Positions 1 through 62,454 of a DNA stretch of 64,000 bases are shown here, one piece after another. The stretch is from the NCBI GenBank assembly GCA_037355855.1, contig CM074758.1, positions 2,267,001-2,331,000 on the forward strand, given 5' to 3'. A program made the translations under genes and the position numbers. The DNA is from Pseudo-nitzschia pungens. Taxonomy: Eukaryota; Bacillariophyta; Bacillariophyceae; Bacillariales; Bacillariaceae. The notes beneath the pieces are model-generated. The model searched no databases, was not told where the DNA came from, and saw nothing but the letters and a program-made list of their open reading frames with translations. Numbering within the stretch: position 1 is the first letter of the stretch; each line of letters opens with the position of its first letter.

Positions 1-691
1 CAAAACGAAGGATTGTCTTCTTAAGTTAGGGTTTACTTCAATTTATTTCCTTCTCTTTCATTTTTGAAATCTTGAAGGGTTATTCTTTGACAACACATTT
101 TCTTATGTTCACAGTTCTTTGTTCCCTTCTTTAAAGTTGCATGCAATGGGGGAACCAATAAAAATTAAAAATTGATAGAAGCATTCAACGCATTTTGAAA
201 TCATTCGATTTTTTTGTTTTGAAGATAGATCATAGTCTAACGTAGCTTGTGTACGCCGCATGTTCATTCGAAAATTTAGATATTGCCCCAAAAAGTGTTC
301 AAGCGCTCTTGGTTGAACTAGATGAGAAACGGATGTCCGTTGACCCACTGTCACAGTTGGAGTAGTCTACATGACATCACGGTAAGATCTTACTTATCGA
401 TCTCGTCACTTTCTATCATTACGAACCATTGAAAAGCATTCTTCTTGAGATTGAGAGACGAAGAAGTCGCAGAATAGATAATTCATCGAGTATTGAATAC
501 GAACCGTCTTCATACTGGTTGTATTCTAAGGCTGAACAATCGATCCATTAATATCAGTTTTAACATTCAATATCCCATAAAAGGCAAAAAAAAGTGCGAA
601 ACTCTGGAGACAAGGATTGCATCATTATACGTAGCTTTGGGAACTCTTCTCCGTCAGATCAAAATCATATTTTGAGCCCCAATGATCAATA
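1..691. other. Left-edge intergenic region
   Basis: AT-rich sequence before the first supported gene. Only short open frames without convincing starts or protein-like composition are present on either strand. It presumably contains the promoter of the gene starting at 692, but I see no recognisable element that I would name. Confidence 0.5.
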
Positions 692-2539
692 ATGCATATA
701 TCGGGTCAAGAAAAAGATAAGAGCTACCAGTTTATGGTTAAGCCATCGCCAACTAAAAACAGTCGTGACCAAAAAAAATACGAAGACAAAAATACAAGAA
801 GGTCGGGCGAAAGAAAATGTGATCTAGTAGAGCGAGAGAAACACGGCTCGAAACCTTACAGAAGTCAAAGACGCTCTAGATCCTCCACCAGAAGTAGCAG
901 CGATCGTGAGCTGCCGGATCTAGTTAGAAGTAACTCAGGTCTGAGCAGTTGCAGTAGCACATATAGCTATCACATTTCGAGTCAAAACCTTTTGCAAAAT
1001 AATTGTTCGAGTCTAAGTTTCAGTGGCAGCTCCAGTAGTTTGAGCAGCAGTCTCCACGACAACAACAGCAACAACATTGCTTGTGATGAAGGTGGAAAGA
1101 AAGAATTTGACATCATTGACTTAGTCAGTGATATTGAAGATGACGATGAAGACAACAATTCTCTCATCGTGCGTCCAGTACATTTAGCAGTAGATGGAAA
1201 TGGGCAAAATTCTCAATCGTCAACTATTCCGACCAAATCAAAACAAAGTGATCAGAAAGTCACCCGTGAACGAAGTGAACATGATAGTATAGGCAGTCAT
1301 CATCGGAATCCAGATCCGAGAAAAGCCAGAAACTATTGGGAGTCCCAGAATTTGGAATTTGAGCGTGAAATGTCATCGTACAATAACCTCGAGGGAGTTT
1401 ACAGATCGGGATCTAGTTTTAAAAGAATTGGAGGCACTGATTCTAGACAGGGCAATATTCCAAAGCTGAACAAGAATTCAAAACAGAAAGATAACGCAAA
1501 CGTGATCTCGAAGACCGGTCGCGGACAAAGCTATTGTAAAGGTCAAGATAATCGGAATGGAGTAAGCAACCGATCTCGTAGTCAACGAGGTGTGAGGCGA
1601 ACAACGAGTGAGAGTGGCGGCTTTGAGAAGTTTCGTGCTAAATCTACGAAGGACCAACATCGACGTCAACGTGGCATTAGGCGGGCAAAAAGTGCTTCAA
1701 GTGCAGATGACAATTGTTGCGATCAATTCAGGGATCAGCCTCGAAGCCGCAGGAGTATTGAGCGAACCCAAAGCTCTCGTAGTGTTCGGAATCATGATTT
1801 GATTCGCACGCAAAGGAGATGTAAAAGTATTGAAAGACACGTAGAACGGGATTCAACAGTCAAGACCTTTGAGTCAGAGTCACAGGAGGGGTTAAGAATG
1901 TTGTTCGGACAAACAACTCGTTGCTTAACTCGTTGCGTGGACGAAGAAACAGTGATTACAAAGAACACAAGTCTGAAATCAATTACAGAGAAGGCTAACT
2001 CATCTGAGCATCAAGTTTCCTCGGGAAGATCTATCGGCAAGAATGTGGTAGATAATTCTGAAACCCCGAACCAAAAACAAATTCCTCCTTCCCAGTATCT
2101 GGTTAGAGTAGAACGAAGGAGAAGACGACCCAAAGATTCAAAAGGCAGCAGAAAAAGTATATCACAAAAATCTAAAAATTCACTGCCACTCCATCATGAA
2201 AGTAACAATTCATCTGCGAGGAGGTTGTCCCAAAGAAAGTCAGGTGAAAAAATAGATCATGGGGTGTCCAAAGAAAAAGCCCATATTGTCACAAGCAAAA
2301 GAAACGACGGAACAAACGTGAGTTCTCTTTTTGAATTGCTATCCGTAAACGAACGTGACAGAATGAACGTGTTTCCTCTCCATAACGATATGAATGGACT
2401 ACCCTCCCCATCATTGGCCTCAGATGACGATACGTTGGAGCCAACAACTGCGAAGAAAAAGAATCGAATTTTAAAGAAGGTGAAAGTCGTACTCGCCTCG
2501 AGCTCTACTTACTCGAAATTACTTTGGAAAAACGACTAG
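692..2539 (+). CDS. Ser/Arg-rich low-complexity protein with possible SUMO-interacting motif
   Basis: Single uninterrupted frame of 615 codons from an ATG at 692. I recognise no enzymatic domain. The protein is basic and dominated by Ser, Arg, Asn and Lys. Around residues 60-75 it has RS-type runs, around 80-115 serine-rich stretches, and near residue 140 an aliphatic core (IIDLV) directly followed by acidic residues (SDIEDDDED), which is the layout of a SUMO-interacting motif. From about residue 290 to 390 there are four degenerate copies of an Arg-rich unit of the type RxxRxIxRxxS. The C-terminus is again basic (KKKNRILKKVK). It is probably nuclear and disordered, but that is inference from composition. 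Its 3' end faces the oxidase gene on the other strand. Confidence 0.65.
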   Translation: MHISGQEKDKSYQFMVKPSPTKNSRDQKKYEDKNTRRSGERKCDLVEREKHGSKPYRSQRRSRSSTRSSSDRELPDLVRSNSGLSSCSSTYSYHISSQNLLQNNCSSLSFSGSSSSLSSSLHDNNSNNIACDEGGKKEFDIIDLVSDIEDDDEDNNSLIVRPVHLAVDGNGQNSQSSTIPTKSKQSDQKVTRERSEHDSIGSHHRNPDPRKARNYWESQNLEFEREMSSYNNLEGVYRSGSSFKRIGGTDSRQGNIPKLNKNSKQKDNANVISKTGRGQSYCKGQDNRNGVSNRSRSQRGVRRTTSESGGFEKFRAKSTKDQHRRQRGIRRAKSASSADDNCCDQFRDQPRSRRSIERTQSSRSVRNHDLIRTQRRCKSIERHVERDSTVKTFESESQEGLRMLFGQTTRCLTRCVDEETVITKNTSLKSITEKANSSEHQVSSGRSIGKNVVDNSETPNQKQIPPSQYLVRVERRRRRPKDSKGSRKSISQKSKNSLPLHHESNNSSARRLSQRKSGEKIDHGVSKEKAHIVTSKRNDGTNVSSLFELLSVNERDRMNVFPLHNDMNGLPSPSLASDDDTLEPTTAKKKNRILKKVKVVLASSSTYSKLLWKND

Positions 2540-19739: not shown

Positions 19740-21015
19740 CGATGATGATTTTTGTTCACCGAAATATCACACAATATGACAAAACATGACGCAACATAAA
19801 ACAAATCAATACTATTAACATCAAGACTAACTCATCAAACACAAGCTCGACAAAGAAAAAAACAGACAACGAAACTGAAACGAAATAAAACCAACTTGCA
19901 ATAACATCACAAAAAAAACGGATGAAATAGAAAAGAAACTTCACCGAAAACAACACGAATTATGCGTAAATTCTAACCGGAATCATCAAAAAATAATTAA
20001 AACCTTACGGTAATTACTAATAAAAACTTCGTAGTAAAACAGATAACACCAACGTTGCGCACTTCTCGAGGTAACACAACCACACTCATACATATCAAAC
20101 ACACCTTTAGATATCACAACCACACATATCACCTTACTTATCAAAACCACTAGAGGTACGAAATTAGACAATTCTTGCACCTTTAGGCAATTGCACCTTT
20201 AGGTATCACAACCACACATACGGTATACTTATCAAAACCACTAGAGGTACGAAATTAGACAATTGTCATTAAAAACCAGCATCACAACTCCGACGAAAAT
20301 ATATTATGCCAATTTCTCATAAAACCAGTAATACTACAACTTAGACGAAAATATAATATGCCGATTGATTCAAAAACCGATCAATTAATATTGCTATTTC
20401 TCATCAAAAACAGTAAAAATGTCTATTTTCATAACCGCGAATGTCCTCGGTTTTAAGCGTTGAAATTGTACTGGCTCTACGCACTAAAAACAGTATTTTT
20501 CAGTTTTTACCAAAATCCCGTTTCTCACACTCTTCAGCTTCTTAAGGAAGTTAAAGTTACGTTTGTAAATGTGATCAAAGTTAGGGATAATCATTTACAA
20601 CTCCACTAATTTGCCGACGCATTTTTAGGGACTCTTGTGATCTTGTTGTTGCGAAGTATTTTTCGGTTCCGTACAAGTTTTACTTAAATTTGTAGTTCCA
20701 TAGCTTAACCTCATTTATCGCTGATTCTTTCGTTTTAGCGACAAGCGCGGAATTTTTTTTCTTCAGGTTTTGGAAGCTTTGACGTCGGTGACAAGCATTG
20801 CTTTCACCTCAATCAATACAATACAATACAATACACCATCATTAAAATCATTGCAGGTTTGCAATACGTTCCTGTCCCACGTTGTCTAAGTTGGAGACCA
20901 CCACCCTCTCCGACCCATCAGAATTTTCACCCGATCGAGAAAGTTATCGGCGTCCCAACTTTAAAAAAATATATAGCAGTCTCGGAAAAAGCAACAACGA
21001 CGGTAGCTGTGAAAA
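19740..21015. other. AT-rich intergenic region upstream of the DOT1-like gene
   Basis: About 1.3 kb without a supported gene. It holds the direct repeats at 20,080-20,262 and a small ATACA microsatellite at about 20,815-20,835, followed by the probable promoter and leader of the gene at 21016. Short open frames here lack ATG starts or protein-like composition. Confidence 0.5.
20103..20262. repeat. Direct repeat pair with CACCTTTAG and CACTAGAGGTACGAAATTAG
   Basis: Two copies, roughly 20,103-20,174 and 20,191-20,262, share CACCTTTAG(A/G)TATCACAACC, ACTTATCAAAACCACTAGAG and GTACGAAATTAGACAATT. A half unit (CACCTTTAGGCAATTG) lies between them. A second pair, ACGAAAATATATTATGCC and ACGAAAATATAATATGCC, follows near 20,295 and 20,345. 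Function unknown; the block resembles degraded transposon ends. Confidence 0.75.
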
Positions 21016-22239
21016 ATGCAGGGCATCGTTTCTCCTGAAGCGATTGTGGAGGACAAGTTCTTGGCGCCTCGAAAATCAAGAACCGAAAACAAAAAGGATC
21101 CACGCAGGGTTCTGTTCGGAGACGATGTGGATAGAAAAGACGGTCCAGCAGAAAGCGGTGAAAACAGTGAGGATATGGCAGGTACACAAAATCTTGCGGA
21201 TGCATCTTTGTTGCGAGTTACGGATAGAAAACGCAAAGCTCATGTTGTTACTCCGAGCACAACTGCCTCCATAACCACCGATGACGATCAATCGGATAAT
21301 ACGAAGGACCAAACGAAGCCATCAGCGAAACGGAGGTTGCTATTTGGACGATATGTAGAGTTGGTCCAGACAGCTCCCAATGTGGATTCGGTGTACAAAA
21401 TCGTTCGAAAATTGACCGGTAACATTGGTGGGAATGGCTATTCGGGCCCGATTTATGGTGAACTCACCAAACATAGTATGCAGAAAATGATTGATCTAAT
21501 GGTCAAAAACACCGGATTCTCGTCGTCGAGTCGCTTTATTGACGTTGGATCGGGCATCGGCAAACCGAATTTGCACGTCGCTCAGTATCCGGGTGTGGAA
21601 TTTTCGTGCGGCGTTGAAATGGAACACAATCGGTGGTCCTTGGGAATGACCTGCCTGAAGGCCTGTCTCAATGCTGCTGTTCGCGAGAGAGAAACCAACG
21701 TGACTTCGAACGAAAGCTCCCTTATGCAAGGCAACACCATTTTTCTTCACAACAATATTTTGGAAGCCAAAACATTCGACCCGTTTACGCATGTGTACAT
21801 GTTTAGCATTGGTTTCCCACCTGATCTTTGGATTCAGTTGTCCGAAATGTGGAATTCATCACACTCTGGTCATTGTCGCTTCCTCATTTGCTATTCCGGC
21901 CCGAAGGACATCATTGGTTGCTATGAGTTCGATGTTGAACTATTGGCGCAAATGCCAACTTCTATGCATGGTTCGAAAGAAAGCCATATGGGATATATTT
22001 ACCGAAGAACTACCGAAAAGAAAGACTCCAATGGGGGGGGACTATCGTCGAAGACTTCTTTTTTACCGTGTGATCCGCTCTTCATACCTTCATACAACTT
22101 GATCAAGAAGGGGCTAAATCATTTGGAAAGCGAAGTCGACCGACAAGTAGAAGAGGAAATGGGGGGTTCGAGGAGGACCAGACGGTCGCATCAAAAGACT
22201 GTATTTTCAAAAAGCTACGGCAATCGCAATAAAAAGTAA
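21016..22239 (+). CDS. DOT1-like histone lysine methyltransferase
   Basis: SAM-dependent methyltransferase of the DOT1 (histone H3K79) type, 407 residues, intronless, ATG at 21016. The first 130 residues are charged and disordered, with two RRxLFG motifs (PRRVLFG, KRRLLFG). The catalytic fold starts at about 145: SGPIYGEL matches the DOT1 loop, DVGSGIGKPNLH near 175 is the SAM-binding motif I, GVEMEHNRW near 198 matches post-I, and VYMFSIGFPPDLW near 260 sits where DOT1 has its NNxxF motif. The C-terminal tail is basic (GGSRRTRRSHQKT), as expected for nucleosome or DNA contact. The second Asn of the NNxxF motif is not present here, so the substrate could differ. It converges with the F-box gene 258 bp downstream. 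Confidence 0.85.
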   Translation: MQGIVSPEAIVEDKFLAPRKSRTENKKDPRRVLFGDDVDRKDGPAESGENSEDMAGTQNLADASLLRVTDRKRKAHVVTPSTTASITTDDDQSDNTKDQTKPSAKRRLLFGRYVELVQTAPNVDSVYKIVRKLTGNIGGNGYSGPIYGELTKHSMQKMIDLMVKNTGFSSSSRFIDVGSGIGKPNLHVAQYPGVEFSCGVEMEHNRWSLGMTCLKACLNAAVRERETNVTSNESSLMQGNTIFLHNNILEAKTFDPFTHVYMFSIGFPPDLWIQLSEMWNSSHSGHCRFLICYSGPKDIIGCYEFDVELLAQMPTSMHGSKESHMGYIYRRTTEKKDSNGGGLSSKTSFLPCDPLFIPSYNLIKKGLNHLESEVDRQVEEEMGGSRRTRRSHQKTVFSKSYGNRNKK

Positions 22240-26425: not shown

Positions 26426-29289
26426 CCTACTCACTACTTGATTTGGGATTTCGTTCAAATATCTTTCTTTCGCCCCAACTGGTTGCTGCCACAATATTAT
26501 CTGTCTACCGCAAATTCTGTTGTTGTCCTTTTCGTTTTTCTCTCTGGTATTTTCGCTCGCTCTCTTTTCCTTTTTCGAGTTCAAACTCCATCAGTTCAGC
26601 GCATTTCCCGTCACATGAAGTGTAATCCTCTCAATTTTTGCTTTGATCGATTGGTTTGATGTTATTAGTGTTGTTTTGTCGCGGTTTGCCATGAGAGTGT
26701 TAGGGTGTGGGTGTTGTGATAATTTTTGGTCTAGGCATGAAACAACACTGCCGTTCATTGTTTCGGAAGAAGTTCTTCCGTATTATTTAAGGACGGAAAT
26801 GTGGATGGATGATGGAAGCCAGATGGTCGAGAGATGATCCGTCATCTGCTCCGCTTTGGGCAAGAACGATACGAGGTCATGCGTACGTTACAAATATGAA
26901 AAATTCTAGATAATTAGCATACTGAATCAATAGGAAAATGATTTAGAGGATTTACGTGCAATAAGAGCTCGTAGCCTGTTTTCCCTTCCTGTCAATCGTG
27001 GACAGTCACATTAAAAAATATGTTAAAACAATAAATACAAGGAGTGACAACCCACGAATCGCGACCAGTGATGAGGAACTAAAAAACAAAAACTACGTAC
27101 ATATAGCAGATGCCGTAATCCTTCTGTGACCGATATTATCAGTTCACAAAAAAAATGACAATAATTGCAATAAGGCTACCGTAAGGTTACGCAGAATGAA
27201 ACAGTAGTCGCACGACCAGATGTCCAAAATACGGAAAGGACTTACAGTACTGTTTTGAACAACGAGACATGCTGGGAATGCTAAAGTGTGACGTAACTGC
27301 TTCAAACTTCGCACAAAAAAATGATGTTCTTCTCGCACCGTACGGCTGGCACAGAGATCTGGGATTTTTACGCCTTCTCCAGTTAATTACGTTACTACAA
27401 AATTCTTATCAGCTGTCCCCCGGTTCTACGTCCCCGACTACTAATTTCTACTGAAACCCGAGGACAGCTGATAGGAATTCTGTAGTAGTACAAAAAGAGG
27501 TAGATACGAAGTGCTTCGTAGTAGTAGCGTATCCATTGTCCATCCGCACAGGTAGAGGATACGAAAATGGTAGCGAACCCTTACACTACTTCGATTGTTG
27601 AGTAGTACTAGAGTAACTTTAACGTGAAGGGACCGTCAAACGTATCGAGAAGTGGCCATCACTGGCGGGAGATTCGGGGAAAGAAGAATGAAAAAAAAAG
27701 CAGTCTGTTTCGTGGGAAAGAAGAAAGAAATGCGTTCCGGGTTCTCTGCTAGTGGTACAAGAAGTGCTGCTAGTGGGTGGGATTCTGTTATCAAAATAGG
27801 GTGGTGAGTCTGGAGATGACACCAAAAGGAGGATCTCGTGTGTGGTTGTGGTTGTTGTGGTTGTTGTGGTTGTTGAATTATTTATTTAGTACCCTCCAGG
27901 CATCAATTCAGGGAAGAGAGCTCCATTTTCACAAGCTTCAGCACATTTCTTCGTCAGCCAAAGAATTTAATGAAAATGAATCCCAATACCTTTAATGCAA
28001 AGAATTACGAATAACCTTACCAGTTAACCTTACTTGTAGTAAACCTTACTGAGTATCGTCAGCGCACACCGCCAGACACCCATCTGAGAGAATGAATTCT
28101 ACCGGTACCAAGTACTTACCATCCTCTGAACACTATTTTGAGTGTAAGTCTCCGCTGAAATACTCTACCTGTACGTGGTACTTTGCTATGTTGTTGTTGA
28201 CTAGTCTGTTGGACAGGTGATGAGAATGCAGTCAATGATCCTCATAAGAACCTGCAAAATGTACATTATATGCTCTCTAAGGTAAGTTACGTAACTTACT
28301 GTGCGCATGTACTACTACTATTCAGTAAAGAGTGAGGTGGTTATTCACTAGCTATTCGGGATTCATCCTCACACCGATAAATAATCTCGAAGTTGATACC
28401 GGTAAATTACCGGTAGAAGGACGCGTATCGTACGAGTACGTTTACCATGTACGAAGTACCGTACCAGGTAAGCTACTCTTACTATTGCTCGTACCAGGTA
28501 ATATACCGGTAAGTTACCGTCGTGAAGTTTTTGATTCACCGGAAAAAATTGCTAACGTAGTAGGGTTAAAAACCTTACTTCGTACGTGTAAGGTTTACTG
28601 CACTTTGTACGAAGTATTATTATTACGAAGTACAAGTAATTACTTGTATTTACAGTATTTTATTCTACCGGTAACCTTACTTCGTAATACTCGAAAGGTA
28701 ATCTTACTCTCAATCTCAACAATACGGTACGACTCGACTCCTCGAAAACGTAGAATGAAGACACGCCAGGACCTCGAATGACATGTTCGTGACAAAGATT
28801 TTGTTTTTATGGTGACACAGGGAACAAGAACCAATCAAAACCTCCTTGTCAGAATCATAATTGAGCTTATGATAAAGAATAAAGAAGAAAAGAGAACAAA
28901 AACGAAGGTGGTTCTTCGAATGTTCTGTAAGTATTCAAAGTTCGATGAATCAGTTGTTGATGGTTTCTGCGTGCCGACAAACATTCGTCAAAAGTGGTAT
29001 GGTACGTACTCGTAAGGTTACCGTACACGTAGGAAGTGCTTGATCAAACAACCACGGGTAATTAGTGTCTGCGTTGCTCATACTGATCTGCATGCCACCA
29101 CAAACACCCCGCCCTGTATGAAATTTCGCTAGTTTTTTGGAACTCGAGTCAATCATCTTCGAAACGTAACCTTACGGTAGTATTGGGATCAGCTCGTGTA
29201 CGAGTACTCGATTCCACTCCAACAAGAGAAGGAGGAAAGCAATCCCATTCTCATTCACTTCTTATTGATTGATTTGGCTTTGATTGCAT
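26426..29289. promoter_or_regulatory. Divergent intergenic region between F-box/armadillo paralogues
   Basis: 2.86 kb between two head-to-head paralogous genes, so it must hold both promoters. It contains a 91-bp MITE (27395-27485) and, from 27,170 and especially 28,000-29,180, many short palindromic words: TACCGGTA, GTAAGGTTAC, TACGAAGTA, TACGAGTACG. I see no gene; the open frames are short and cross these repeats. Confidence 0.55.
27395..27485. mobile_element. 91-bp MITE, copy 1, TA target duplication
   Basis: Terminal inverted repeats of about 28 bp: left end CTACAAAATTCTTATCAGCT, right end the reverse complement of CTACAGAATTCCTATCAGCT. The arms run on into GTCCCC. TA flanks both sides (27393-27394 and 27486-27487), as for Tc1/mariner-type insertion. 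It differs from the copy at 60761 by a single base (GAGG against GGGG in the right arm). Confidence 0.9.
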
Positions 29290-48032: not shown

Positions 48033-50530
48033 TCACCGATGGCTCTTGCTTCCATTGCCCAATCGCGCGTGGCGGGACACAAAGTTTGCTCCCAGCTTGA
48101 CGTTTCGCCACAGAAAAATGCGACCGTCGATGGCGGCCTTGCGGTGCTTCTGAAGGGGTCCCCTGGCGACCAGCTCGTTCGGGTTTTCGGCACCCGGCAC
48201 AAGCCCGTTTTTCAGCGTGATGACGTCCTTTCCGTCCAGGTCCCTGAGGAAGGCTCGGTCCGCCTCGTACCGGGCCTTGATTTCTTTCCACGTTGCTGCC
48301 TTTTTCGAGCCGTTTTCGGATTTTTTTCCGCCCTTCATGGTCCCGCGGCAATTGGGGGCTCCGCACCGGCACACGAATCGATCCCCCTGTTTCGTATCGA
48401 AATGGTAGTCGTAACTCAGGAACTCTCCCGCATCGATGTCACGGGTGCTGTAGATCCCGTTGCGGATGCGGCCCTTGACATTGACGCTCATGACCTTGCA
48501 GTTCGGAGCGCAGGAGTGATTGATGAAGCGGCTCTGGTTCGCGTACACCCGCGCATCGATGTAGAAGCCCCCCGACAACTCCATGACGTAAAAGTTGGGA
48601 TCGTTGGGGTGTTCCTCGTTCCATATCCGAAGCCGGTGTTCCTTCTCCTTTTCGTCGACCACTTCCCCCACGTATTCTTGAACGAGCTTGCCCTTGGGAA
48701 TGTGTTCGAGGGTGACCAGTCCCCACCCCTTGCCTGGTTCTCGCTTGGGCTGGCACTTTACGAATTTTCGTTTGCTCATGCCTCGATTTCCACAGTCCTT
48801 GTCGCCGAGGTTGCAGTTACTCGGACCGATGCATTCCGCCATGATGTGGCGATTGAAACAATCTTCCCCACAGAACGATCCGGTGCACTTGCATTTTTCC
48901 TGATCCTCGGGAGCGGGACCGGGAACCTTTTTTGGTCGGTTGTTCGGATCCGCGTATCGAAGTGACTGGATGTGTGTGTACGAAGGTGGTTTCGAGTAGA
49001 CTTCCGTCTTGATGTCGCTTGGCAGACAAAAGGGGATGCTGCCGTCCAGTATCATCGATATCGTGCTGGAAGGATTCACGGATATTGTGCCGGGATGTTC
49101 TATCCCCCTGTTCTGGTGCTGCTGCAAGGTTGTGTCCCTGATGTACGCGAGCAGGTCTCGCTCCGCCGCATCGAACTTGTCCCCCCGTAACCCCGGAAAG
49201 AAGGGATTGGTCGACAGGCCCCGACGACCGTACATGCGCAACCACGCATTGGCGTGCTTATCGGATTTCGATTTGTTGCGACCCACCCCGTGAAGCTTCA
49301 TCAGAGTTTTGTCGATCCTGCTTTCTACCTGCGATTGAAAGGATTCGTTCAGGTCCAGTTCGGGAAGTTTGTGTGTCATGGCGTGTTCGTGGCAGAGGAC
49401 CGCCAATTCATGAAACTTTGCGGTCGGCGGGATGCACGTGATGTGATAGGCTGTCGGGCAGTAGAGACATCTCTGCGAAACAAACGAGCGCACAAAACCA
49501 ACACGAAAATGAGTGTGTGTTGCAAAATGGATCAACCGCAAGCTTTCGAGACGGTTCACAACGCTCAATCCGATTTAACTATTCCGGTACACGTAGAGCC
49601 ATGGAACGACTCAATCAAAAGCGATATTGAAATCCAGCGAAACGTTGATTGCCATCCGCTTTTCCGTAACTTACAAAGAGACGACCCTGTTTTTTGCACT
49701 GAAAGATCGACGCGGTCTTCTTTCCCTTTTTTCGCGACGATTTCCCCTTGCCTTTGATTGCTGTTTTCTCTGCCGCTCGTTCTTCCTTTTCGAGCTGGAT
49801 CATATCTTTTTGCGTGCACGTCCAGCACCGGTGGCCATGGCAGGTAAAGACGGGAATGCGAGACTCTTCGTCCTCATCGTTCTCGTCGTTTTCGATTTCG
49901 GTTTCCATTGCCTGTCCTGTGTCGCGACGGTTGGATGGATGGAGATGGAGATGAATATGAAGATGCGGATGCAGTTGCGGATGCGTATGTGTACTCGACG
50001 TCGTGGAGGCGCAGACAGGCCTCGCAAAAGAACAAGCCGCACTTGTCTTCCTGACATGGAAAGACGTTGACGTAGTCCGCACCGTATTCCCCGCAATACG
50101 CGCAGGCGTGCTCCTTCCTCGAACAATCCTGGCACAACCACTCGTCGTCGGTCGACGGTGCCTCGGTCAATCCCGCACAGGGAATGTGGAAGATGCGATG
50201 GCACGAGCCGTCGCAGATCAAAAAGTCCGCAGAACCCTCGGCGCCCACCAGACCGCACTCGGCTTCCTTGCACTCGGCACAGATCCACGCCATGTCTTCC
50301 TTGTCTTCTTCCTCCTTCTTTGCCGAGGACTTGGGTTTTCCGGCGCTGGTTGGTTGCTCAACTTTCTGCTTCTTGTTTGCACGACACGATCCCGCATCGT
50401 TCGTGGAATCGTCGCCGTTTCCATCGTTGCCGTTGTCGGGTGCTGTCGGTTTTTCTGGTCCTGGATCATCGGTGGCGTTGGAATCGTTCGCGCTGGGAGC
50501 GCTCGGACATTTCTTTCTCGGAGAAACCAT
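48033..50530 (-). CDS. PHD-AWS-SET-postSET histone methyltransferase (NSD/ASH1/SETD2 class)
   Basis: Nuclear lysine methyltransferase; the AWS plus SET plus post-SET order is that of H3K36-type enzymes. Exons: 50000-50530, 49675-49911, 48033-49472, GT-AG introns of 88 and 202 bp, 735 residues. PHD-type zinc clusters start near residue 85 (WICAECKEAECG, FLICDGSCHRIFHIPCAG) and 135 (CAYCGEYGADYVNVFPC). A third, FTCHGHRCWTC...FQCKKQGRLF|RCLYCPTAYHITC, is completed by the second splice, which supports it. AWS at 450-486 (CKCTGSFCGEDCFNR), SET from 491 (GWGLVTLEHIPKGKLVQEYV) with RFINHSCAPNC near 571 and GEFLSYDYHF near 605, and post-SET CRCGAPNCRG near 624. All catalytic elements are intact. The first splice is the least certain, because the frame after LRLHD could also run on into low-complexity sequence. 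Confidence 0.9.
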
Positions 50531-55734: not shown

Positions 55735-56234
55735 GGCGGAAGACTTTCGATGTGTTTTCAATCAATCAACAAGAAAACAAGATTTCTTGTTCGTCAAGGT
55801 ATGTGGAAACGGGTAGAAGAAGAGAGGCAACTTGAGAAACAGGTTCGGTAGCTAATTACGGTAAGGTATTTACGATGCAGACGAATTGTGTCGGTTCTTC
55901 GTTGAAAAGAAAATCACGAAGTACAAAGATAATTTTTTTGCTCTGACGGAGTGAGTCGATCGTCTCTCGCGTCTCGCTTGAAAAGGCTTCAAGAACCCGA
56001 TCCCTAAATCTCCAAAATAGAATTAGCTAGTCTTGGAACGAATGACGTCATCTAGAGAAGTTGAAATCCTGATTTTCCACGTGTATCTTGGGGACGGATC
56101 TCACGGATCATGGGAACATCGAGCGAGTCGTCGAAACCTCTAGAAGTCAAGAAGATCGTGCTTTGCGGAAACTCGAGGGAAGAGTTCAACCCTGGCGCAG
56201 CTGTTGTCATACTTGTATTCCGAAAAAGAAAAAG
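55735..56234. promoter_or_regulatory. Shared divergent promoter region
   Basis: 500 bp separate the start of the hydrolase (minus) from that of the HopJ-like gene (plus). Both proteins carry presequences, so co-regulation from a bidirectional promoter is possible. I see a TACGAAGTAC-related word near 55,916 but no TATA or other element I would define. Confidence 0.45.
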
Positions 56235-57204
56235 ATGAAGTTCGCTGCCAGCGCTTTGACCATTGCTTCTGCGATTGCAGGCACTCGTGCCTTTGCCCCT
56301 GCTTCGCTTGCCGGACGACCTTCCGTCGCTTTGGAAGCGAACATCCGTGACAAGACCGACAAGTCCGACAACTTGGCATTCGGATGGGATGGCACGACCG
56401 CTTTGGGTGGTGCCGTTGAGGTCGCCAAGCCAAGCCGAATGTTGGATGAGATCCGCGAAGCCGGGGAAACCATCCCCAGTGCATGCGAGGTTTTCAACGC
56501 CAATGTCGAAATGGATGCCGACGAACTGAAATTCGAGGAAGTCATGGAAATCATCGACACCCACTACGAAGCTGGATTGATCGAATTTAAGAACGGTGAT
56601 ATTGTCAACAAGCCTGGTGAAAACGAAGGATCCGCGAAATTGCTCAGCTATGCTGCTCTCTCTGGATTCGATAAGGAAACTACTCTTAAGCTTTGGGGTC
56701 AATACTACAGAGAAGTTCTCGCCGACCCCGACGGAGACTCTCACCAAAACATCCGCAATTTCATGAAGACCGGATGGGACGGTACGTAAATCAACAATTT
56801 TGATGCTTGAACAGACCGCGATGTACGAGAAAAATGCTGCCTCTACCATTTTTTCGTGAGGATGACGATTTTTTCAATAGATAGTAGATTCCGAAAACAG
56901 GCGACGCTTGTAGACGCTGAGGACAAAAGGAATTATTACGGACTCAATGAGAGAATTTGGCGTGATGGATAACACTGCAGAAAAAAATGCGCTTTTGACT
57001 GAGACTACATGTTACGACAACAAAGATATTGCCTCTTTACAGCACACTCATGATTTCATTGTTTCATCTGTAAATTCGCCAACCCTCGAACCTCGATTAT
57101 TTCGGCGGAAAACAGGTGTTCCATTCGAGAATGGAATTGCTTTGACAAAGAAGAATGTTGGTGACAGTGACTGGGACTGGGACTCGGAATCATGGATCCC
57201 TTAA
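56235..57204 (+). CDS. Plastid-targeted HopJ-like protein
   Basis: 211 residues from two exons, 56235-56781 and 57116-57204, with a 334-bp GT-AG intron in phase 1. The N-terminus is a signal peptide ending in TRAFAP, the diatom ASAFAP-type plastid entry motif, so stroma or thylakoid is the likely location. The rest matches the HopJ family, named after a Pseudomonas type III effector but widespread in free-living bacteria and algae: MLDEIREAGETIPSACEVFN, FEEVMEIIDTHYEAGLIEFK, a GSAKLLSYAALSGF segment, LWGQYYREVL, and DSHQNIRNFMKTGWDG|VPFENGIALT across the splice. It ends in an acidic, Trp-rich tail (GDSDWDWDSESWIP). The molecular role of this family is not established. There is no toxin-like context here. 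Confidence 0.85.
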
Positions 57205-57736: not shown

Positions 57737-60452
57737 TCACATAGAAAGGCAACTATCCAGAAGTTCTTCGCCCTGCTGGATGTCACGAAGCGGAGTAGCC
57801 TTTGAATAAAATTTCACCTGTCTATCGGCTGCTGGATTATAAACAAAGTCTGGTGTTTCTTTCGGATCGGCGCTGGATTGCGATACTCCAAGTTCCGAAC
57901 CCAGGTTGTTCTTTCCATCACAGACATGGTTTGTAAAAGATTGCAACTGCGAGCAAAAAATGGGAGAGCAACAAGATAAGGGGCAGAGAACAAATAAACA
58001 AAGGAAAGACAAAGAAAAACTTGGGGTCGTCAAAATGCATTATGTTCACGACAGGCTTACCATCGATCCACCAACGAAACTTTCTTCTCCACTGTAAGAC
58101 GATAGTTCGCAATAATCATTTACATATGATTCCAGTACTGACCCACTCCATTTTTCGCCACTTATTGAATTTGTTTTCGAGATGAGCTTGTACGCCTGTG
58201 CATCCCCTTCAATCAAGTGAATGGCCTTCTCAATACCAATATAACTCTCACGCGGGATGTTTATCTTAGCAAATACGCCTCTGCCAGCTTTTTCCCCATC
58301 ACTTCTCTCTCTAACTTCGATACTAGATATGGGCATGTTTTGTCGATCGGGGTCGAATCCCTGTCCCTCTTTGCAATTCTTGGACTCCGGGTTGCCACGA
58401 CAAAATACAATCTCGATTGGCTTTGAGGGGTGGTAATATGATTGCATCGTTGCCCCATCGAAAAAATGAAAGGGGGACCCACCATCCACTGTGACCATTG
58501 CTCTTCTTCTGATCTTAAGTTCCACGAGAGCTGGGTTGGCAAACCATTCGGCCTTGGTCTGTGAATTTTTGAATGCAGCAATAAATTGCCATGGAAAAGA
58601 GAAACCACTATGCATGTGATCGATGTAAGATCGGATTGTTTCAAAACCTAACCTGGAGAGGCTGCTAATGAGTCTGACTCGATTGAGATCAGAACTGTAT
58701 ACTTCGGGTGGATCCGTAGTCTCCGGACTTTCACCGACTTGAGCAATGAAGATTCCGTCGTTGTTCAATGCTCTGGGTACTGATTTCAAGAATGGACCTT
58801 CGTCGTAAAGGGCATTGACAAAGTCCTTTCGAATTTGCGGGTCTCTGGGCAGAGAATCAATGACCTTTTAAAGTGAGTTATGACGACTGAACAGCAATGG
58901 AACGGATGCTACAAAAAACTTTCTGACTCAAAGTCAAATTATTCTGAACTTACAGAGCGTCCATGATGATGACGTCAAATGGATCAACGCGTGGAGGACC
59001 ATCCACTGGAAAGTTATCAATAAACCATTGGAATGCATCAATATATTGGACTTCAACCCTTGGATCATCGAAACAACTCTCGGCGCTACCTGCCAACGCG
59101 CTGCAATCGCTCCACGATGGTAGGTGTTTCCTGGAAGCATCTACCATCATTTGATCGATCTCGATCATTACGGCAGTCTCCACCGTTTTGTGTTTTAGAA
59201 CTTCCCTAAGCGATGCTCCTTCTCCACCACCGATGATCGCTACTCGTTTCGGATTTTTGTGGGCAAACATGGCAGGATGGATCAAAGTTTCGTGATACGC
59301 GGCTTCGCCAGACCTACGAGATTGCAATACCCCGTCCAAATAGACAATCCTATCCGGTTCAAATAATTCTGGGTGACGGGATTCGTAAGATCCGTCATTT
59401 TTGAGTGATTTTTCATAAGCTTCAAGGGTTTGTTCGTTAGGCCTCAAGACATCGTAAATTCTGACCTGCTGGAAACTCGTTGAGGTGGCAGCAATCTCGT
59501 TCTTGTAATCCGTCAATTTACCAACCGGGAAATATTCCATGTCCGTCAATTCAGCTGTCAGACTTGACGTATCCCCTTCTGGATATCCTCTCGTTTTGTG
59601 AGCCCAAACAGCGTTTGGCGTCTTTAATTCTTCCCCCGTGGTAACTTCCCTTGGGACGCCAAAAAGCTCATTTGCAAGCGGCACGATGGGCAGCAAAGAG
59701 TTGGGACCACACGTGTAGAGATCAAGTGTAATCACCCCCTCTTTGGGCCAGGTGTGGAAAGACACATGACTTTCCAACAGCACACCAGCACAACTCACTC
59801 CCATCGGTACCATCTTGTGACAGTGATAGGAGAGAAGGGTCAGACCGCATTCACCAATGAGATCGAGCATCGCGTGTGCAAGCCGTTCCTCTGAGTTCAA
59901 AAAGCTTTCACTGACATTCTCAATGTCCATCAAAAGATGCTGACCAGTCGGCAGATGGGTTTCATCTTCGTCATCCTCGTCATCCTCGTCGTCCTCGCTG
60001 TCTTCGTCTGGATCATCGACGGGTAGTGCGCGACATTCGTGCTCCGGGATATCGACACAGTTTTCTTTTCCTGCTTCCGTTACGATCCAACGGGATTGCG
60101 AAGAAACCGTATTGCCAGTGCCAAAAGCCTTTGATGTGTAGAGTGTTTCGGGGGGAGTCTTTCCGTCTCTCATTTTGGGATCCGGGAGAGTCTTCATCGC
60201 TAAGGGAGATGCTGCCTGTGGATAATTGCTTTGGTCATTGGAAACGTTAAGAGCCTCGTTGCTTTTCTGCAACAGCAATTGTTGAGGTCTCACCAACAAC
60301 AGCATCCGCGCCGTACGGCCAACGGCAAAAGCCACCAAAACGCAGGAGAGTACACTGAGAGCAACGAATCGTTTACTTATCAAAACGAGATATTTTGATG
60401 CATTGTGGTCGGGATCAGTCTTCTTGGCATTGGAAGTCGATGATCTTGTCAT
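57737..60452 (-). CDS. Membrane-anchored AdoMet decarboxylase / aminopropyltransferase / SET-like fusion
   Basis: Polyamine-forming fusion enzyme of 830 residues. Exons: 58954-60452, 58061-58844, 57737-57946; introns of 109 and 114 bp are GT-AG and the joins restore MDAL|DPQIRKDF and GGSM|LQSF. A signal anchor spans residues 29-45 (FVALSVLSCVLVAFAVG). Next comes a bacterial-type S-adenosylmethionine decarboxylase, about 165-280: GQHLLMDIENV, self-cleavage pair Glu227-Ser228 in LLESHVSFHTWPK, His233, and Cys248 in LDLYTCG. Then a spermidine-synthase-like aminopropyltransferase, about 325-625: YLDGVLQSRRSGEAAYHE, SAM-type loop IGGGEGAS, EIDQ, FDVIIMDALDP. The end is SET-like: AGRGVFAKINIPRESYIG, FTNHVCDGKNN, then LRDIQQGEELLDSC. 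The usual catalytic Tyr after GEEL is not obvious, so methyl transfer is unproven. Likely in the ER-Golgi or silica deposition membranes. Confidence 0.9.
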
Positions 60453-60760
60453 GGTTGCACGGCAGTAGGGGTTTGTTGTTTCTCAATCCATATGCGGTTG
60501 TGCAATGTTCTTTCTCTGTTTCGTTGAAAATGCCACCATTGGGTAACTTATCGCAGAGTTGCAACGAATGACAGAGCCTCTAAACTAGTGTCACGCGATC
60601 ACGAAGCTCAGTGAAAACCGAAAACGAGAACAGAAATATCCTGAAATGTCGTTTACCCGCTTCAATTCAACTCCGTTTCCCAATTTTTCGTCCATCCAAA
60701 AATTTGTATTCAAGGTTCATCTTTGGGGTCGCGTGGAATCACACGTGTGCGAGACGCATA
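60453..60760. promoter_or_regulatory. Upstream region of the polyamine fusion gene
   Basis: About 300 bp before the minus-strand start at 60452, ending at the MITE insertion. No defined element recognised; the MITE now sits roughly 310 bp upstream of the start codon and could affect the promoter. Confidence 0.4.
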
Positions 60761-60851
60761 CTACAAAATTCTTATCAGCTGTCCCCCGGTTCTACGTCCC
60801 CGACTACTAATTTCTACTGAAACCCGGGGACAGCTGATAGGAATTCTGTAG
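60761..60851. mobile_element. 91-bp MITE, copy 2, TA target duplication
   Basis: Same length and sequence as the copy at 27395-27485 except one base. In this copy the right arm reads CCCGGGGACAGCTGATAGG, which pairs better with the left arm. Flanked by TA at 60759-60760 and 60852-60853. Confidence 0.9.
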
Positions 60852-62454
60852 TAACATTTCAGTGATCGTCTTAATTAAACAGCTTGAAATTTTTAAGATG
60901 CGAGACGTATCCGAAAAAAACCTTAAAATAATTATAGTCCCGCTGAATTTCTATTTTCGTTTTGTTTCTGAATGCACGTGTCTCCCGTGTGATCAACCGT
61001 GCTGTGTGATACGCCCGAGCCTGCAGGCGTTTTGTCGTGCTTGTAGAAGGCGAACCCATCAAAGATAATGTGTTAGTACGAACGTGCCTCCATGCTGCAT
61101 ATGCTCATACTTGCACGTACCAGGTAAGGTTACCGTAAGATCTTACCGGTACGGTACGTTTAGTGATTGCTGGAAATGACAAAAATGGTGGTACGTACGA
61201 GTAAGGTTAATCTTACTTATGTGCCGGATGCGGGATACCATAAGGATTTTGATTCTCTCTCCATAATCCCATCTACCGATTCTCCATCTGGAGCTGATGG
61301 GCCGGTAAAAATTGTGAACGAACTTTTTGGAGATGAACTAAGTAAGACCTTATGTGACGGGGTTTGCACTTTTGCTGATAACTCTGCACACACAACCTCT
61401 CTATTCAAAAAAAGACATCATCTTTTAGCCAACACTCTACTCGACAATGCTCCATATTCACATTTGAAAATATCTTTTGTTGTTCTTCCCTTCGTAAGCT
61501 CATGCATAAATGTCAAAGGCCCAAAATGGGATGTTTTTCGAGTCAAAGCATCACACCGGTCATGCCTGTGTGCGCACAAAATCAGCTCTTTTTTTGCGTA
61601 TCATGGACAATCTCTCTCAACTGTTCTCGAACAAAATACTTCGCAATTACTTGTTATTTTACGTAAACATGCTGTCACGCATTAATGTACCAAATTTCCA
61701 TGCTTCCTTGATAATCAATTTTGGCTTACTATGGGAGGCCAAAGATATAGGTGAAAAATCTAATTGCACTAGCGGTTGTAGTTACAACTTTTGCTGAGAA
61801 GGTTTCAGTTGCTGAGGGAGATATTTGGTCCCATTGTAAGGGAAGACTGACTCTGTCACTTTTTTTGGTTCATTAAAAATTTTCACTGGTACTTACTCGT
61901 TCAATTGTAATTGTTCGTCCGTATAGTACGAGTATTGATGCTCCCCCAGTGGTTCCAAACGCGATTGTTGGATTCGATGTTGTTATTACAAAGTATTTTT
62001 TTACCATCCGTAAGGTTACGAGTACGAGTAAGCCATACTTGAACTCGCCGTTCAGATCATCAACTACTTTCGTCTGTAAAAATTGATTGGTTGTGCTCAG
62101 CACTAAGTAGAACTGATCTGCTGGTGACAAGTGCAACATAGAATTGATCATTCGAACACAGCGGCGACCATGTCTGAAAAGATCCGACGTCGGTGGTTGA
62201 TCGTACAATGTGTGGATCTTCATATTGCATGTAGTATTAGACGACACATGGAATAATTTAAAAATCAAAAATGATCTTCTCTCTATTTTACAGTTTCGAG
62301 GCCATTGCCTGATTTCGTTCAGCCTACTAGAGAGGCGTTATGTATCGTAATCTTTCGTCTGTCGAATTCGTACGTGTGATTGGTTGATAGAATATTTCAA
62401 ATTGTCCCATTGCAATGCGCTTGCATGTTGAAGTGTTTCTTTCGTCGGCACTCC
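60852..62454. other. Intergenic region with one weak ORF
   Basis: 1.6 kb. GGTAAGGTTACCGTAAGATC and related words cluster at 61,120-61,215 and 62,005-62,030. A 170-codon plus-strand frame from ATG at 61,176 to 61,685 has ordinary amino-acid composition but no recognised family and starts inside the word cluster; it may be chance or a gene remnant. No other gene seen. Confidence 0.4.

Follow-up and report, generated by a model that had tools for sequence, protein, structure and literature searches.

A predicted membrane-anchored AdoMet decarboxylase-aminopropyltransferase-SET fusion of Pseudo-nitzschia pungens with a replaced SET tyrosine

The question raised by this locus is whether one predicted polypeptide of the diatom Pseudo-nitzschia pungens could both make and methylate long-chain polyamines. 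The stretch of DNA analysed, referred to here as the window, comprises 64,000 nucleotides of contig CM074758.1 (assembly GCA_037355855.1, forward-strand positions 2,267,001 to 2,331,000). It carries on its minus strand a gene (Table 1) in which an S-adenosylmethionine (AdoMet) decarboxylase (AdoMetDC), an aminopropyltransferase (APT) and a SET-like segment follow one another behind a predicted N-terminal anchor. The tyrosine found at the end of the SET domain in most relatives was found to be replaced by cysteine in this copy. We consider it somewhat probable that the product is a membrane-anchored AdoMetDC-APT-SET synthase of long-chain polyamines in which the SET module is impaired, methylation being left to paralogues.

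An earlier note, made from the sequence by a model, had proposed a single spliced frame of 830 aa in three exons, and the start and the stop were found as claimed, with GT-AG introns. The features by which diatom AdoMetDC-APT-SET fusions are recognised could be followed along this chain. The top hydrophobic 19-residue stretches of the protein begin at residues 22-30, giving the predicted N-terminal anchor which the note had also described, and AdoMetDC and aminopropyltransferase then follow in this order. Both enzyme assignments of the note, a decarboxylase with a Glu-Ser site and a spermidine-synthase-type transferase, were borne out by strong profile matches. In the former, E227-S228, H233 and C248 line up with the solved bacterial-type AdoMet decarboxylases 2iii and 1vr7, and we take these to be the Glu-Ser cleavage pair and the catalytic His and Cys. 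The transferase possesses the GGGEG loop (residues 408-412) and, within DALDP (498-502), the two Asp of DxxDP that characterise aminopropyltransferases (PF01564), with E411 found in 113 of the 121 aligned rows, D498 in 120 and D501 in 105. The decarboxylase and transferase modules look competent.

The C-terminal segment is weaker when taken by itself, its Pfam SET match scoring 19.2 bits, where the cut-off is 22.4, and ending at position 101 of the 105 in the profile. Two motifs of active SET methyltransferases are present, GxG as GRG (687-689) and NHxC as NHVC, the latter lying within FTNHVC (residues 765-770) in exon 3 and absent from the earlier note. The assignment as SET is marginal from the profile of this protein alone and convincing only together with the family; the SET-like C-terminus proposed in the note thus stands by its motifs and its relatives, and not by the score of this copy. 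A third domain is commonly present in diatom homologues. Fold searches were made with models of relatives P0129 and P0002, and that with P0129 retrieved SET chains, which answers for a relative the check on a SET fold that the note had suggested. The model of P0002, a near twin of the window protein, has low confidence in the SET part, and the search with it listed only the transferase and other Rossmann-type folds and barely probes the SET domain.

The absence of an obvious catalytic Tyr after GEEL, named in the note as its weak point, is real. The window protein ends in GEELLDSCLSM-stop, three residues after Cys827, where the family consensus is GEE(L/I)xxNY. Since the terminal catalytic Tyr expected of an active SET methyltransferase is Cys827 here, the protein was not filed as one. 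Column 827 is a gap in 41 of the 121 rows. NHxC is intact and the end is covered in 73 aligned rows. The Tyr is kept in 64 of these, the other nine being the window and P0002 (both C), P0001 (D), P0040 and P0072 (E), P0035 (L), P0045 (F), and P0026 and P0053 (gaps; P0053 ends just before the position and may be incomplete). A sequencing error at the Cys codon is unlikely because P0002, which comes from another source, ends in the same SCLSM. In the tree the window protein and P0002 are grouped with a support of 95, and both are joined with P0001 and P0022 at 94, a small clade to which the loss of the Tyr may date. P0022, which is too short to reach the SET part, is the nearest species-named homologue (Pseudo-nitzschia multistriata, 76% identity over 60%).

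The two SET motifs tend to be kept or lost together. With the paralogue L008 added (its first-exon piece joined on for the tree, and left out of the SET/transferase identity comparison) the alignment holds 122 rows, of which 91 could be scored for both NHxC and Tyr: 65 have both, 16 neither, 9 only NHxC and 1 only Tyr (Fisher p 1.2e-10, kinship ignored). On the tree, 8 independent pairs could be drawn on starred branches, 7.2 of which on average over random pairings go the same way (median sign-test p 0.016, range 0.008-0.125). Some of the rows with neither motif may have incomplete ends, in which case the link would be inflated.

Table 1. Features of the fusion gene, in window coordinates.
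Feature	Position	Strand	Remarks
Whole gene	60452-57737	minus	start 60452, stop 57737 (TGA), three exons, 830 aa
Exon 1	58954..60452	minus	anchor, acidic tract, AdoMetDC, first part of aminopropyltransferase
Hydrophobic stretch, residues 22-47, presumed membrane anchor	60312..60389	minus	Kyte-Doolittle scan
AdoMetDC domain, residues 172-252	59697..59939	minus	Pfam AdoMet_dc E 3.6e-21; aligned with solved enzymes 2iii, 1vr7
Glu227-Ser228, presumed self-cleavage pair	59769..59774	minus	E and S each in 114/121 aligned rows
Aminopropyltransferase core, residues 383-543	58715..59306	minus, split by intron 1	Pfam Spermine_synth E 1.7e-34
Intron 1	58845..58953	minus	109 nt, GTAAGT...CCCAG, GT-AG
Exon 2	58061..58844	minus	remaining transferase and first part of SET-like domain (GRGVF)
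SET-like domain, residues 687-824	57758..58285	minus, split by intron 2	Pfam SET E 0.0017, under cut-off
Intron 2	57947..58060	minus	114 nt, GTAAGC...CGCAG, GT-AG
Exon 3	57737..57946	minus	NHxC motif, GEEL motif, Cys for Tyr, stop TGA
NHVC, residues 767-770, NHxC motif of SET domains	57920..57931	minus	alignment
Cys827, in place of the family's Tyr	57749..57751	minus	column 827: Y in 68/121 rows, C in 2 (window, P0002)

The gene model was examined against several alternatives. The canonical junction of exons 1 and 2 gives DVIIMDALDPQIRKDF, which matches relatives P0001, P0002 and P0005 in the alignment with homologues; an alternative junction at 58974/58864 would give 830 aa too, but deletes IIMDAL of a conserved motif and was rejected. 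P0002, located on a 2520-base contig and 92% identical to the window protein over 74% of the query, runs uninterrupted across both splice junctions, which suggests that it derives from a spliced transcript, and less probably from an intronless gene. The note had given transcripts ending before 58,061 as grounds for abandoning its reading, and this near-identical sequence continues through both junctions. A chance frame was ruled out by the agreement of two strong domain profiles and a weak one with the two canonical introns and with full-length homologues. A fourth exon past the stop, as in L008, was also rejected: the in-frame flank GTGSKQRTANVSKWSNQI may be what is left of the KW..NV tail seen in relatives, but it is only weakly like that tail, and P0002 ends at the corresponding place.

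By profile search, the 66.9-Mb assembly was found to hold at least six places with AdoMet_dc and at least 20 Spermine_synth matches, several of the latter inside one gene. One of these loci, L008 (G000:C3:7144421), is an AdoMetDC-APT-SET paralogue in which NHGC and GEELLNNYLGM are intact; its closest listed relative, P0020, is 96% identical over the tree columns and bears PF00856. The position of intron 1 (DAL|DP) is common to the window gene and L008; in the SET part the introns of the two genes are offset by ten residues, and two more introns are present in L008. In L007 (C5) both enzyme domains are found, but SET gave no match and the third part lacks NHxC; GGGEG is replaced by GAGLG in L009 and by NCGGG in L010, both of which bear AdoMetDC.

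Reversed fusions, in which SET (PF00856) precedes the transferase, were found at L019, L020, L023, L024 and L026, with the SET match of L024 under the cut-off. L020, L024 and L026 combine SET and transferase, and in L019 and L023 a weak AdoMet_dc match follows, under the cut-off. The kinds of module are those of the window protein, from which these fusions differ in having SET first, in longer frames (up to 1581 aa) and in an AdoMet_dc match under the cut-off; several of the frames are cut at the ends of their loci. The abstract of Michael's study of diatom fusions is said to mention an 'alternatively configured' class with a dead AdoMetDC, which these reversed fusions resemble. At L018, positions 139-1869 (plus strand) encode an anchored transferase with an acidic tract, for which no AdoMet_dc match was obtained up to an E of 0.01 and the frame of which stops at DVVILDAL, the intron 1 site in the window gene.

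The three-module architecture has already been described since 2011, according to PMC3820600 and PMC12029483, which cite Michael (2011; FEBS Lett 585:2627) for AdoMetDC-aminopropyltransferase fusions of diatoms, some with a histone N-methyltransferase domain, that may N-methylate long-chain polyamines. As far as these citing passages go, the statement in the note that no third methyltransferase domain had been described does not hold. The window protein resembles the fusions so cited in module order, in a third domain of histone-methyltransferase type and in the proposed long-chain polyamine role, and differs in having no terminal SET Tyr. In passages of later reports, diatom fusions were called uncharacterised in 2018 (PMC6356823), three fusion genes were given for Phaeodactylum (PMC10968388), a fusion protein of Entomoneis was raised by aluminium (PMC12533330), and in 2025 32 aminopropyltransferase fusion proteins were counted in Nitzschia inconspicua and the diatom fusions were said to need study (PMC12803844). 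Compared with solved AdoMet decarboxylases of the bacterial/archaeal class (2iii, 1vr7 and 1tlu) and aminopropyltransferases (7xif and 1uir), the modules of the window protein are fused in one eukaryotic, predicted membrane-anchored chain. With SET methyltransferases (PF00856; SETD8, SET7/9, MLL and S. pombe Set7) the protein shares the GRG, NHxC and GEEL motifs and, through a relative, the fold, whereas Cys for Tyr and a profile score under the cut-off set it apart. Added here are the altered SET site, the occurrence of this change in a 92%-identical relative, and the presence of an intact paralogue in the same genome.

Elsewhere in the window, an open frame at 48033-49574 (minus strand), about 8 kb from the polyamine gene, has a strong SET match (E 9.2e-22) with an NSD-like PHD finger and is a candidate for an ordinary histone methyltransferase. 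A frame at 21013-22239 (plus) has a DOT1 histone-methylation match (E 6.5e-9), and one at 56073-56789 (plus) encodes a Pfam HopJ domain (E 4e-38) preceded by an N-terminus that carries an AFAP motif and is similar to a plastid-targeting signal of diatoms. Upstream of the start codon of the fusion gene, at a distance of 307 bases, lies an inverted repeat (60759-60853) with 33-nt arms that are 91% complementary and 29 nt apart. At least 40 places in the genome, itself included, match 80 bases of this repeat at 99-100%, a second copy in the window being found at 27403-27482, and it looks like a recently spread miniature inverted-repeat transposable element.

If the favoured account of an anchored synthase with an impaired SET module is correct, the AdoMetDC module would cleave itself at Glu227-Ser228 and yield decarboxylated AdoMet, which the adjoining transferase would use as the source of aminopropyl units for a polyamine acceptor, while the anchor would keep the chain on an endomembrane. 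Without the Tyr and the tail which follows it in relatives, the SET-like module of the window copy would be catalytically impaired, so that N-methylation of polyamines would have to be supplied by paralogues with intact SET motifs, L008 for example. The role in diatom long-chain polyamines put forward in the note was judged probable. Several points weigh against this account. Its tie to silica and to long-chain polyamines comes from the family and from published papers. In a few other relatives with an intact NHxC the Tyr column holds Phe, Leu, Glu or Asp, and Tyr may thus be dispensable in some of them. The SET domain is also as conserved between the window protein and P0002 (152/165 identical) as the transferase core (176/190), and on the two end branches it has not changed fast (SET/transferase length ratio 1.52 for the window and 0.72 for P0002), so that it may still do something.

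That something could be methylation of the growing polyamine despite the Cys, all three modules being active as the note had supposed, and the 152/165 identity, the intact NHxC and GRG and the complete motif set kept by most NHxC-intact relatives would agree with this. Since the terminal Tyr is Cys in this copy, however, the proposal is better argued for relatives with both NHxC and Tyr; with Tyr and tail gone in both the window protein and P0002, and a match that falls under the cut-off and stops short of the profile end, we regard it as quite improbable here. The opposite extreme, a decaying SET relic without function in what is simply a two-enzyme fusion, is likewise unlikely. It would account for the loss of Tyr and tail and for the SET/transferase ratio of 2.79 on the branch shared by the window protein and P0002 (1.60 overall), and NHxC is lost as well in three wider-clade relatives, P0008, P0009 and P0010, the ends of which may be incomplete. 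Equal or higher ratios are, however, seen on branches of Tyr-bearing relatives (3.45 for P0017 and 4.60 for the ancestor of P0006, P0007 and P0023), the end branches have the ratios of 1.52 and 0.72 given above, and the frame is open with canonical splice sites. A possible, if doubtful, alternative is that the SET domain of relatives with intact motifs methylates protein lysines, for instance of silaffins, and that the window copy has lost this role. The proteins of solved structure that are related by fold are protein-lysine methyltransferases, and for cell-wall proteins SET protein methyltransferases specific to diatoms have been put forward (Nemoto, 2020, cited by PMC11554505 and PMC11151724). 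Against this, SET is fused to polyamine-making enzymes in many relatives, and a polyamine substrate is therefore favoured.

More tentatively, and on balance we think it rather unlikely, a small Pseudo-nitzschia-like lineage may keep a dead but constrained SET domain, its paralogues dividing between them unmethylated and methylated long-chain polyamines, the ratio of which would tune silica formation. The proposal of genes for making and methylating the long-chain polyamines of diatom silica dates from 2011, and two related fusions in one genome, of which one keeps the SET site intact and the other has the terminal Tyr replaced, are a natural experiment on polyamine methylation by SET domains.
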